From: Parafannyhessea umbonata
GTDB taxonomy: Bacteria; Actinomycetota; Coriobacteriia; Coriobacteriales; Atopobiaceae
NCBI RefSeq assembly: GCF_900111255.1
Contig: NZ_FOGP01000001.1
Coordinates: forward strand, 1 to 64,000
Direction of reading: 5' to 3'
Length of the DNA: 64,000 nucleotides
The notes under the pieces were generated by a model. It worked only from the letters and a program-made list of their open reading frames with translations, was not told the DNA's origin and ran no database searches. Below, piece by piece: positions 28,656-62,386 of this stretch (the first letter of the stretch is position 1; every line of letters starts with the position of its first letter). The position numbers were made by a program, and so were the translations under genes.

Positions 28656-28811
28656 GTTCTTCTCCTCTGCTTCTTCGGTGTGACGAGGCTCATTATGGGC
28701 GAAGATGAACTTTTGCCTCACGACAACGGCCTGCGTGCGCTATCTCCATGGACAGAACTATTAAAATGTCAGTCAAAACGTCAATTCCCCTGCCAGCAAA
28801 AGGAGAGTCGC

Positions 28812-30263
28812 ATGAAGGCTCAGATGTTCACCCTCGAGAGCAAGGACCTGCAGAAAAGCTTCGACGTCGCCGTGTTTGGTGAATCGGGCACGCCCGTGTT
28901 GGTCTTCCCGGAGGGGGATTCGTCGTTTGCCAGCTGGCAGGAGGCAGGCATGATCGACGGCCTTGCGAGCCTGATGGACGACGGCGCGGTCCAGCTGTTC
29001 TGCGTCGACTCCGCCGACGACCTTGGCTGGTACTCGCGCTTTGCCATCGACGAGTACCGCGTGGACAACATCGAGGGCTACCTCTCGTTCGTTAAGGACG
29101 GGCTCGTGCCGTTCGTCCGTGCGCACGCGGCCTCGCCTGCGGCGCCTGTCGCGCTTGGTGCCGGCATGGGCGCCCTCAATGCGACGCTCGCCGTGCTGCG
29201 TGACCCCGCGTCCTTTGGTGGCCTACTCGCGCTCTCCGGAAGCTACGACGTTCGCGCCTTCGTGAACGGTGAGCCCTCGGCCCTCTGGGAGAAGGTCTCG
29301 CCCCTCTCGCTGGTGGACGCTCTTGGACCGCGCGCCAAGGCGACTCAGGAGCTCAAGAGGCTTCGCCTGGCGTTCGTCTGCGGTCAGGAGCAGAGCGAGT
29401 CGGGCATCGCCTCCCAGAAGACGCTCGAGGAGGCGCTTGCCCAGAAGGGGGTCAAGGCGACCTTCGAGTACTGGGGTTATGACGTCTCGCACAGCTGGGG
29501 CTGGTGGCTCGAGGAGACTAGGCAGCTGCTTCCCGCGATCCTGAGCCCGGGTGGGCTGGAGGAGCGCAGGGTCTCGGCCCGCGTCGCATATGCGGCAAAC
29601 GAGGACGAGCATGCCCGTGCCGCGCTGACGGATGCGCGCGAGCGCCTGGCCGCAGCCCGCGACGCACTCAAGATTGCCATCAAGGACGCCGAGGCCACTG
29701 CGGCGCGCGTCCAGCGCGAGGACGCCTCTGTCGAGCAGAAGCGCGGGCGCGAGGCCGACCTGATGGCCAAGGCCGCGAAGCTCTGGGAGGAGCGCGACCG
29801 GGTGGCCGCCCTCCTTGCGGAGGCCGAGGGCAAGGCGCGTGACGTCCAGGGCCAGGCAGATGCTGCCGCACACGACCGCGCCGACGCCGAGTGGATTGCC
29901 GGCGAGGCGAAGGCCGCGGTCGAGCACGCAACCCAGAACAGGCTGTCCGCAGAGGCGAGGATCGCCGAGTGCGAGGCGGCCGTCGAAGCGGCCCAGGCGG
30001 CGAGTGCCGCTGCGGCCAGCGCGCTGAGCGCGGTCAGGGCCGAGGCGGACGCAGAGGTCGCCGCCGCGAAGAGGCCCGCGGCCAAGAAGGCCGCCACGAA
30101 GAGGCCCGCGGTCAAGAAGGCCGCCACGAAGAAGCCCGCGGCCAAGAAGGCCGCCTCGAAGAAGCCCGCGGCCAAGAAGGCCGCCACGACCAAGAAGACA
30201 ACCGGCACCTCGGGCGCCAAGGGCGGCAAGGCTTCGCCCAAGGCAGCCAGGGGCGCAAAGTAG
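28812..30263 (+). CDS. Pseudo-esterase with coiled coil and histone H1-like Lys/Ala/Pro tail
   Basis: The 483-residue protein has three parts. Residues 1-243 look like the COG4947 esterase fold, with YWGYDVSHSWGWW providing the usual His (H227). The elbow reads GAGMG (116-120) where G-x-S-x-G is expected, so the nucleophile is G118. Residues about 262-416 are an Ala/Glu/Lys/Arg-rich coiled coil. Residues 418-483 are a basic tail with four decapeptides like KRPAAKKAAT, as in histone H1-like Hc1/AlgP proteins. It is probably a non-catalytic scaffold that binds nucleic acid or another polyanion. ATG 28812 has AAAAGGAGAG upstream. The acetyltransferase gene follows by 27 nt. Confidence 0.82.
   Translation: MKAQMFTLESKDLQKSFDVAVFGESGTPVLVFPEGDSSFASWQEAGMIDGLASLMDDGAVQLFCVDSADDLGWYSRFAIDEYRVDNIEGYLSFVKDGLVPFVRAHAASPAAPVALGAGMGALNATLAVLRDPASFGGLLALSGSYDVRAFVNGEPSALWEKVSPLSLVDALGPRAKATQELKRLRLAFVCGQEQSESGIASQKTLEEALAQKGVKATFEYWGYDVSHSWGWWLEETRQLLPAILSPGGLEERRVSARVAYAANEDEHARAALTDARERLAAARDALKIAIKDAEATAARVQREDASVEQKRGREADLMAKAAKLWEERDRVAALLAEAEGKARDVQGQADAAAHDRADAEWIAGEAKAAVEHATQNRLSAEARIAECEAAVEAAQAASAAAASALSAVRAEADAEVAAAKRPAAKKAATKRPAVKKAATKKPAAKKAASKKPAAKKAATTKKTTGTSGAKGGKASPKAARGAK
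30061..30180 (+). repeat. Four tandem 30-bp repeats in the basic tail
   Basis: Four in-frame 30-bp units (30061-30090, 30091-30120, 30121-30150, 30151-30180) differ by one to three bases and encode the decapeptides of the Lys/Ala/Pro tail. Such near-identical units can change copy number by slippage, so tail length may vary between strains. Confidence 0.9.
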
Positions 30264-59803: not shown

Positions 59804-62386
59804 TTGAAGCTTGTAGTCACCGAGAAGAACGATGCTGCCCAGCAGATTGCGAGGCTTCTTGCAAATGCAGGTAAGCCCAAGCAGGACAAGGTGTATGACA
59901 CCCCCGTCTATCGCTTTACGGTCGATGGCGAGGAGTGGGTCAACATCGGTCTGAGGGGTCACATCCTGGCTCCCGACTTTGCCCGCGAGCTTCACTACAG
60001 CAAGAAGGAAGGCTGGACCGCCGTTACCGCTGAGGGCGAGATTCTGCCCGCTAGCCTACCCGATACCCTGGCGCGTCCTCCCTACGACACCAAACGCAAG
60101 CCCTTCCTCAAGGATGGCGTTGACATCAAGGGATGGAAGGTCCCCAGCCTGCCGTATCTCATCTGGGCTCCCATCGAGAAGCAGCCAGCCGAGAAGGGCA
60201 TCATTCGCGCGCTCAAGAACCTTGCCAAGAAGGCGGACTCCATCGTTATCGCGACGGACTTCGACCGCGAGGGCGAGCTCATCGGATCCGACGCCCTGCG
60301 CCAGATGCGCGAGGTCGCGCCCGACACGCCCGTCTCGCGCGCCCGCTACTCCGCCTTCACCAAGCCTGAGATCGAGCATGCCTTCAACAATCTGGTCGAC
60401 CTCGACCAGAACCTCGCCGATGCCGGCGAGTCCCGCCAGTACATCGACCTCATCTGGGGCGCCGTCCTGACGCGCTACCTCACGATGGCCCGCTTCGGCG
60501 GCCTCGGCAACGTGCGCTCGGCAGGCCGCGTCCAGACGCCGACGCTTGCCATCGTGGTCGAGAAGGAGCGTGAGCGCAACGCGTTCGTCCCCGAGGACTA
60601 CTGGGTGCTCTCTGGCGCGCTCGCCCCCAAGGGCTCCGACGACGACGGCTTCAAAGTCACGCATGCCACGGCTCGCTTTACCGACGAGCAGAAGGCGAAC
60701 GCCGCCTTCGACCACGTGCGCGACGCAAAGGTTGCCACCGTCACCAATGTCGAGCGCAAGAGCCGCACCAACAAGCCGCCCGTGCCGTTCAACACCACGT
60801 CGCTGCAGACCGCCGCGGCAGCCGAGGGCATCAGCCCCGCACGCACCATGCGTCTTGCCGAGTCCCTCTACATGGACGGCCTCATCTCGTACCCGCGCGT
60901 CGACAACACGGTCTATCCCAAGTCGCTCGACCTCAAGGATGTTGTCAAGACGCTCTCGGCCGTGCCTCAGTACCGTCCCGTCTGCACGGACCTCCTGTCG
61001 AAGGAGAGCCTGACCGCAACCCGCGGTAAGCAGGAGACGACGGACCACCCGCCCATCTACCCCACCGGCGCAGCCGATCCCGACAAGCTCGAGGGTCCCG
61101 CCTGGAGGCTCTACAACCTGATTGCCCGCCGCTTCCTGGCGACGCTCTCCGAGCCGTCGGTCACCGAGAGCACCAAGTTCTCCTTCGACGTGGAAGGCGA
61201 GCCCTTCTCCGCTTCGGGCACCGTCCTCGTCAAGCCGGGATTCCGAGCGATCTACCCCTACGGAATGAAGAAGGACGAGCAGCTTCCTGCCCTCGAGGTG
61301 GGGGACTCCTGCGACGTTCGCAAGATGGACCTCGAGGCCAAGCAGACCGAGCCTCCGGCGCGCTACAGCCAGGGTCGTCTCATCGCCGAGATGGAGAAGA
61401 GGGGTCTGGGCACGAAGTCCACGCGTGCCTCCATCATCCAGCGACTCTACGATGTCAAGTACCTCAAGAACGACCCGTGCGAGCCCAGCCAGCTGGGCAT
61501 GGCCATCATCGACGCCCTCACGAAGTACGCGCCTCACATCACGAGCCCCGATATGACGGCCGTCCTCGAGTCTGACATGACCAGGGTGGCCGCCGGCGAG
61601 GACACGCAGGACGACGTCGTCAGGCACTCGCGCACGCTGCTGTCCGGCATGATCGACGCCCTCATCGAGCACAAGGACGACCTGGGCGACGCCATCGCCG
61701 ACGCCGTCACCGCCGACGCCAAGGTGGGCGTCTGTCCCAAGTGCGGCAGGGACCTCGTCATGAAGACCTCCGCCAAGAACCGCTCGAGCTTCATCGGCTG
61801 CATGGGCTGGCCCGACTGCGACGTGACCTATCCCGTCCCCAGCCGCGTGAAGGTCATCCCCATCGAAGGGGAGCAGGGTGTCTGCCCCGTCTGCGGCGCG
61901 CCCCGGATCAAGTGCCAGCCCTTCCGCAGCCGCGCGTACGAGATCTGCGTCAACCCCGCCTGCGAGACCAACCGCGAGCCCGACGTCAAGGTGGGCGAGT
62001 GTCCCGTCTGCGCCGCCGCCGGCAAGCACGGCGACCTCATCGCCCACAAGAGCGAGCGCACGGGCAAGCGCTTCATTCGCTGCGAGAACTACGACGTCTG
62101 CAGCGTCAGCTACCCGCTGCCCCAGCGCGGCGAGCTCCACGCTACGGGCGAGACGTGCCCGGATTGTGGTGCCCCCATCGTCGAGGTCGTCACCCAGCGT
62201 GGCCCGTGGCGCATCTGCGTTAACATGGACTGCCCCGGCAAGGAGAAGAAGGCCGCGGCCAAGGGCCGTGGCACGAGCCGCAAGACCAAGGGCGGCTCCA
62301 AGGGCACGGCCAAGAGTTCGTCGAAGAGCACCTCGAAGAGTGCCTCCAAGGGCGGCTCCAAGGGCGGCAAGCGCTCCTCCAAGTAG
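59804..62386 (+). CDS. topA: DNA topoisomerase I, archaeal type
   Basis: The 860-residue type IA topoisomerase relaxes negative supercoils. It starts with a Toprim domain (KLVVTEKNDAAQQIARLL, then ATDFDREGELIG at residues 150-161). The active-site Tyr is Y363 in LISYPRVDNTVYPKSLDL, matching the archaeal pattern (S-Y-P-R-T-D-N-T) rather than the bacterial one (T-Y-M-R-T-D-S). Four zinc motifs of the CPxC...C-x4-C type follow (about residues 640-810), and a Lys/Gly/Ser-rich tail ends it (about 816-860). The start is TTG 59804 with AAGAAGG upstream. It appears to be the main topoisomerase I locus. Confidence 0.9.
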   Translation: MKLVVTEKNDAAQQIARLLANAGKPKQDKVYDTPVYRFTVDGEEWVNIGLRGHILAPDFARELHYSKKEGWTAVTAEGEILPASLPDTLARPPYDTKRKPFLKDGVDIKGWKVPSLPYLIWAPIEKQPAEKGIIRALKNLAKKADSIVIATDFDREGELIGSDALRQMREVAPDTPVSRARYSAFTKPEIEHAFNNLVDLDQNLADAGESRQYIDLIWGAVLTRYLTMARFGGLGNVRSAGRVQTPTLAIVVEKERERNAFVPEDYWVLSGALAPKGSDDDGFKVTHATARFTDEQKANAAFDHVRDAKVATVTNVERKSRTNKPPVPFNTTSLQTAAAAEGISPARTMRLAESLYMDGLISYPRVDNTVYPKSLDLKDVVKTLSAVPQYRPVCTDLLSKESLTATRGKQETTDHPPIYPTGAADPDKLEGPAWRLYNLIARRFLATLSEPSVTESTKFSFDVEGEPFSASGTVLVKPGFRAIYPYGMKKDEQLPALEVGDSCDVRKMDLEAKQTEPPARYSQGRLIAEMEKRGLGTKSTRASIIQRLYDVKYLKNDPCEPSQLGMAIIDALTKYAPHITSPDMTAVLESDMTRVAAGEDTQDDVVRHSRTLLSGMIDALIEHKDDLGDAIADAVTADAKVGVCPKCGRDLVMKTSAKNRSSFIGCMGWPDCDVTYPVPSRVKVIPIEGEQGVCPVCGAPRIKCQPFRSRAYEICVNPACETNREPDVKVGECPVCAAAGKHGDLIAHKSERTGKRFIRCENYDVCSVSYPLPQRGELHATGETCPDCGAPIVEVVTQRGPWRICVNMDCPGKEKKAAAKGRGTSRKTKGGSKGTAKSSSKSTSKSASKGGSKGGKRSSK

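Follow-up and report, generated by a model that had tools for sequence, protein, structure and literature searches.

Type A gene and its product

The window, which is the whole stretch of 64,000 nucleotides of Parafannyhessea umbonata DNA that was analysed, carries on its forward strand a gene for a protein, here called type A, in which an alpha/beta-hydrolase domain is followed by a helical region and a basic repeat tail (Table 1). The coding sequence starts with the ATG at 28812, ends with the stop codon at 30261-30263 and has an AGGAG motif at 28801-28805, just 5' of the start. The gene is considered real because orthologues are found in many genera and because the hydrolase domain is constrained among them (pairwise dN/dS of 0.05-0.22). 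Weak NCBIfam matches to valyl-tRNA ligase and SMC were judged to be low-complexity and coiled-coil artefacts. A role in anti-phage defence was dropped, since no PADLOC family matched type A at E<=0.001.

Table 1. Features of the type A gene, and related loci inside and outside the window.
Feature	Position	Strand	Basis
Type A CDS, pseudo-esterase by sequence, 483 aa	28812..30263	+	open frame; PF00756 1.8e-8; orthologues
Alpha/beta-hydrolase domain, residues 1-245	28812..29546	+	AlphaFold2; Foldseek
Degenerate nucleophile elbow GAGMG (G116-G120), Gly118 at the Ser position	29157..29171	+	residue comparison
His227, equivalent of the catalytic His	29490..29492	+	residue comparison
Predicted hairpin helix 1, residues 248-331	29553..29804	+	AlphaFold2; 3.50-residue hydrophobic period
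Conserved tip of the predicted hairpin, residues 321-370, turn 332-338	29772..29921	+	conservation; dN/dS
Predicted hairpin helix 2, residues 339-427	29826..30092	+	AlphaFold2
Basic tail, predicted disordered, residues 418-483, net +23	30063..30260	+	pLDDT; composition
Four decapeptide repeats, 30-bp tandem repeat	30069..30188	+	TRF
Archaeal-type DNA topoisomerase I, Lys/Ser/Gly-rich basic C-terminal tail	window 59804-62386	+	
Type B esterase paralogue, P. umbonata genome	L031:5155-6561, G000:C3	-	PF00756 4.6e-10
P. umbonata GlgB, 105-aa basic K/A/T/P tail, 32 K/R, 4 D/E	L274:12824-15061, G000:C5	-	
Tailed GlgA loci	L205:1262-3598 and L206	-	

Hydrolase domain and nucleophile position

Residues 70-234 match the Pfam Esterase family PF00756 with an E of 1.8e-8 and 34.9 bits, for a family cut-off of 22. 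The AlphaFold2 model, built with an alignment of 55 sequences, has a mean pLDDT of 86.4, with the hydrolase domain mostly above 90. Foldseek groups this domain with feruloyl esterases, S-formylglutathione hydrolases and antigen 85, and the top PDB match is the ferulic acid esterase 5vol (E 5.8e-11, probability 1.00, TMt 0.72). The fold, the Pfam membership, the His and several pocket residues are common to type A and the CE1-type hydrolases of PF00756, whereas the Gly at the nucleophile position, the added hairpin and the basic tail set type A apart.

The nucleophile elbow reads G116-A-G118-M-G120 and not GxSxG. Position 118 is Gly in 32 of the 33 distinct type A sequences, whereas it is Ser in 16/18 sequences of the paralogue type B and in 48/51 wider homologues. 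The presence of Ser in the paralogue family and in the wider homologues indicates that the loss of the nucleophile is specific to the type A clade. An earlier note on this DNA had described a hydrolase fold without nucleophile (G118), which the PF00756 match and the prevalence of Gly bear out; it had also named Ser in homologues as a point against this description, and such a Ser does occur outside type A but is nearly absent within it. The sole type A sequence with Ser at position 118 (L070) lacks His227. The catalytic His of an active PF00756 esterase is present as H227, which is conserved in 30/33 type A sequences (replaced by P twice and by Y once), in 18/18 type B and in 51/51 wider homologues. 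A second change is linked to that at position 118, since residue 123 is Asn in 32/33 type A sequences and His in 65 of the 69 others; residues E196, D224, W229 and W232 are kept in all 33, and a conserved PEGDS loop at 33-37 is peculiar to type A.

The constraint on the fold after the loss of the nucleophile implies that the fold is under selection and that type A is, as judged from its sequence, a pseudoenzyme. The Foldseek matches of the type A hydrolase include PDB 1r88, the MPT51/FbpC1 protein of Mycobacterium tuberculosis, a pseudoenzyme of the same fold that lacks the catalytic Ser. MPT51/FbpC1 belongs to the antigen 85 group and, unlike type A, has neither hairpin nor tail.

In homologues from Selenomonadaceae and Veillonellaceae (L079, L080 and L081) the Ser nucleophile is replaced by Asp (GIDLG, GCDLG), which reads as a separate loss or switch.

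Helical hairpin

The coiled coil that the earlier note had placed after the hydrolase is borne out, with the difference that the structure prediction gives two long helices around a seven-residue turn, and not one rod. The pLDDT of this region is mostly above 90, and from the helix lengths and the turn the two helices are predicted to pack antiparallel. Both helices have a hydrophobic period of 3.50 residues when Ala is counted (shuffle p of 0.0055 and 0.001); helix 2 does not have it when large hydrophobic residues alone are counted. The same arrangement is predicted for L075, a distant and nearly tailless orthologue (pLDDT 90.0). A search of the PDB with the hairpin profile gave nothing better than E 0.05, with tropomyosin as the best match (E 0.051).

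Within the added region, conservation is highest at the tip. Its mean top-residue frequency is 0.58-0.79, versus about 0.4-0.5 in the stalk (10-residue blocks), and it contains 12 invariant columns across 18 orthologues. The pairwise dN/dS of the tip (0.00-0.13), together with that of the hydrolase domain, points to a maintained protein. Among 140 Atopobiaceae genomes, the tip profile matched 33 at E 6e-23 to 7e-15, every one of them positive for type A, and gave two marginal matches at 0.002 beyond these. The type A hydrolase and the hairpin travel together, and the hairpin is found on no other protein. The two occur in the same 33/140 genomes.

Basic repeat tail

The four Lys/Ala/Pro decapeptides reported from the sequence (KRPAAKKAAT, KRPAVKKAAT, KKPAAKKAAS and KKPAAKKAAT) are confirmed at the DNA level by TRF, which detects at 30060-30189 a repeat of period 30 with 4.3 copies, 94% matches and a score of 225. 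The tail contains 23 K/R and no D/E in 66 residues, and against the composition of the remaining protein the K/R count has a p of ~1e-7 and the absence of D/E a p of ~1e-5. Most of 435-483 has a pLDDT below 50, and the tail is predicted to be disordered. The remainder of the protein is acidic (pI 4.75; hydrolase -13, tip -5), which would leave type A with no other obvious DNA-binding surface.

If the rule for calling a tail is 25 or more residues past position 410 with a net charge of +10 or higher, 20/31 type A orthologues have one, with net charges of +10 to +33, and in 11/31 it is absent or too short. A quick tree of the orthologues requires at least five gains or losses. The tail is also the fastest-evolving part of the protein (dN/dS 0.21-0.76). 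Absence of the tail in relatives, which had been named beforehand as a point against the proposed architecture, holds for the 11 orthologues but not for the other 20. The basic tail is optional, and the hairpin, not the tail, is the defining part of type A.

Distribution, neighbours and the type B paralogue

The family search was done with a profile built from 13 relatives; a single-sequence scan of the genome contigs gave no relatives, whereas the alignment-based scan did. Type A is strong in 33 of the 140 Atopobiaceae genomes (353-437 bits), followed by a gap and then by type B from 267 bits, in counts that are inflated by close relatives among the sampled species. The named type A loci belong to Olsenella, Parafannyhessea, Tractidigestivibacter, Olegusella, Atopobium and relatives. 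A branch with support 100/100 separates type A from the rest of the tree; since this branch is long, the exact point at which it joins type B and the clostridial homologues is uncertain.

Conservation of the genes around type A does not extend past close relatives, and a divergent HAD-hydrolase gene beside it is common to close species only; the operon context was consequently set aside as a guide to function. In L067/L082 type A has a divergent branching-enzyme gene as its neighbour, and in L066 its distance to malQ-glgP is 2.3 kb. Glycogen or maltodextrin genes are near type A in only about two lineages, a proximity estimated to be little above chance.

Type B belongs to the same PF00756 family as type A and also has a basic repeat tail, but differs in its intact Ser (GCSLG) and His and in having no hairpin. 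Its KPAA tail, of roughly 200 aa, is longer than that of type A in the P. umbonata genome. The Ser of type B is intact in most genomes. In several Atopobiaceae type B adjoins an ATP-grasp ligase gene, which was searched for and not found in the P. umbonata genome. In Oscillospiraceae, the homologues recur in a cluster of three genes, two for PF00756 esterases and one for an ATP-grasp ligase (e.g. L090:6167-8966, + strand), for which no NCBIfam model scored above its cut-off. The ATP-grasp ligase was rejected as a partner of type A, because it goes with type B and the clostridial homologues.

Tails of the same kind on other proteins

A tail-protein search of the P. umbonata genome (99.8% complete) returned type A alone and missed the tail of type B, and motif patterns were used instead. 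DNA coding for KPAAK occurs nine times in the whole genome: twice in type A, six times in type B and once in a PRC-barrel protein. In 12 relatives, clustered KPAAK outside types A and B is found in GlgB (G001, G030, G005 and G014), in GlgA (G014 and G031) and in a TatA-like protein and a cytidylate-kinase fusion (G033), and single matches fall mostly in short or antisense ORFs. A strict search for basic tails in 704 kb of Atopobiaceae loci, fetched around types A and B and partly overlapping, detected only type A, type B and topoisomerase I.

GlgB is found in 130/140 Atopobiaceae genomes. All 30 of the best-scoring GlgB loci, ranked among the matches of the 130 genomes by similarity to one GlgB and with the P. 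umbonata locus among them, encode a basic K/A/P/T tail, 30-203 aa long, and G030, G005 and G014 have a tailed GlgB beside these. Tailed GlgB also occurs in genomes without type A. The glg operon of P. umbonata is complete (GlgB, GlgP, GlgC, GlgD, GlgA and GH13-GH77) and, besides that of GlgB, none of its products has a tail that passes the rule. GlgA is tailed in two genomes: in G014 the KPAA tail is C-terminal and holds 18 KPAAK, and in G031 it is N-terminal. Type A lies outside the glg operon, which is on another contig in P. umbonata, and no domain for glycogen binding was detected in type A. The sharing of tails is a low-complexity compositional resemblance and not homology, and it gives no proof of a common origin or function.

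Known proteins with comparable tails

The KPAA-repeat tail of AlgP from Pseudomonas aeruginosa binds DNA, and AlgP is associated with storage granules (PMC9239181). The phasin PhaF from Pseudomonas putida combines a granule-binding part, a coiled coil and a Lys/Ala/Pro histone-like DNA-binding tail (PMC3574117). HbhA (HBHA) from Mycobacterium tuberculosis, formed by a coiled coil and a Lys/Ala/Pro tail, binds DNA independently of sequence (PMC10665949). The order of coiled coil and Lys/Ala/Pro tail is the same in PhaF and type A, but the N-terminus of PhaF is an amphipathic PHA-binding helix and that of type A an alpha/beta hydrolase, and a PHA synthase was not found here. AlgP shares the KPAA-repeat tail, but its N-terminus is helical, it has no hydrolase domain, and polyphosphate kinases were not found in P. 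umbonata. HbhA resembles type A in the architecture of the C-terminal half and lacks the hydrolase domain; Pfam gave no HbhA family for type A, and the likeness seen is one of architecture. The likening of the tail to those of nucleoid-binding or polyanion-binding proteins, made in the earlier note, is supported for tails of the PhaF, AlgP and HBHA kind. No published description of type A or of a tailed GlgB was found in the open-access literature; as far as this literature shows, type A is undescribed and would be a variant of the KPAA-tail tether placed on a predicted inactive esterase fold.

Proposed function and alternatives

The preferred explanation has four steps and, taken as a whole, is given a probability of about one in three. 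In the first step, which is well supported, the type A copy of a serine esterase would have lost its nucleophile in Atopobiaceae and kept a constrained fold and pocket, which suggests that type A now binds rather than cuts. In the second step, supported by structure prediction and conservation, a long antiparallel hairpin would project from the hydrolase and its conserved tip would dock one specific putative partner. A non-catalytic scaffold with a hairpin, as described by these two steps alone, is likely. In the third step the disordered tail, where present, would be a multivalent tether that holds type A electrostatically to a polyanion, with DNA or RNA as the most likely one. This role is probable, though less so than the scaffold, by analogy with the KPAA/Lys tails of AlgP, PhaF and HbhA that bind DNA; the 11/31 orthologues with no countable tail indicate that tethering is not universal. 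The fourth step, the least certain, makes type A part of a glycogen-granule or glycogen-enzyme assembly, as PhaF is for PHA and AlgP for polyphosphate. It is put forward tentatively from the presence of the same type of tail on GlgB and sometimes on GlgA. The position of type A outside the glg operon, the tailed GlgB of genomes without type A and the failure to find a glycogen-binding domain in type A count against it. A broader version, in which histone-H1-like tails tether the glycogen of Atopobiaceae to the nucleoid, with a tailed GlgB and type A as dedicated scaffold of a glycogen 'organelle', is speculative and rather unlikely.

The alternatives differ mainly in what they make of the tail. 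Type A might be an architectural protein of the nucleoid without a role in glycogen, its hairpin self-associating or docking a nucleoid protein and its tail binding DNA non-specifically. HbhA, whose DNA binding depends on the C-terminal domain (PMC10665949), gives a precedent, P. umbonata topoisomerase I, a DNA enzyme, is basic-tailed too, and the lysine repeats of actinobacterial TopA raise processivity (PMC7398561). The 11 tailless orthologues and the acidity of the remaining protein speak against such a function, which also leaves the sharing of the tail by GlgB and GlgA unexplained, and we regard it as somewhat unlikely. A less likely case is that the core alone holds the function, as a scaffold or regulator acting through pocket and tip, and that the tail arose when GC-rich Lys/Ala codons expanded almost neutrally into low-complexity sequence. 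The tail does come and go among orthologues and evolves fastest, its 30-bp repeats are prone to slippage, and the most conserved added part is the tip. On the other hand, a strong positive charge with few acidic residues is kept in 20/31 orthologues, tails are also present on paralogue B and on all 30 best-scoring GlgB loci, and such tails are rare on other proteins.

Type A could also have remained an enzyme that works with another nucleophile or with a metal, or it could act as a regulatory subunit for the Ser-intact paralogue B. The retention of His227 and of the four invariant residues E196, D224, W229 and W232, its own PEGDS loop and the intact Ser of B in most genomes agree with this; the His is gone in three sequences, type A occurs with no detected B in the near-complete genomes G008, G026, G027 and G029, and no alternative nucleophile special to type A stood out, so that we consider it improbable. 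The tails closest to that of type A among those described are the ones of AlgP and PhaF (PMC9239181, PMC3574117), and a polyphosphate- or PHA-granule protein might be expected from them. The PPK1, PPK2 and PhaC_N families were searched for and not found in the 99.8% complete P. umbonata genome, with control genomes positive. The failure to find PPK1 and PPK2 makes polyphosphate unlikely as the ligand, against the polyphosphate binding suggested in the earlier note; P. umbonata seems to make neither polyphosphate nor PHA, while its glycogen operon is complete, and a granule protein of either kind is hardly credible.

Significance

Conserved type A proteins are carried by Olsenella-type gut and mouth bacteria. 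Independently of the tail, type A would show clearly how an enzyme fold can become a scaffold when its nucleophile is lost and a helical arm is added. KPAA tails were previously known from the granule proteins of PHA and polyphosphate in Pseudomonas. The tailed GlgB and the esterase-fold pair lead to a testable rule, namely that storage granules are anchored to the chromosome by tails of this kind. If this is true, the tailed glycogen assembly would be the glycogen counterpart of PhaF for PHA and of AlgP for polyphosphate.
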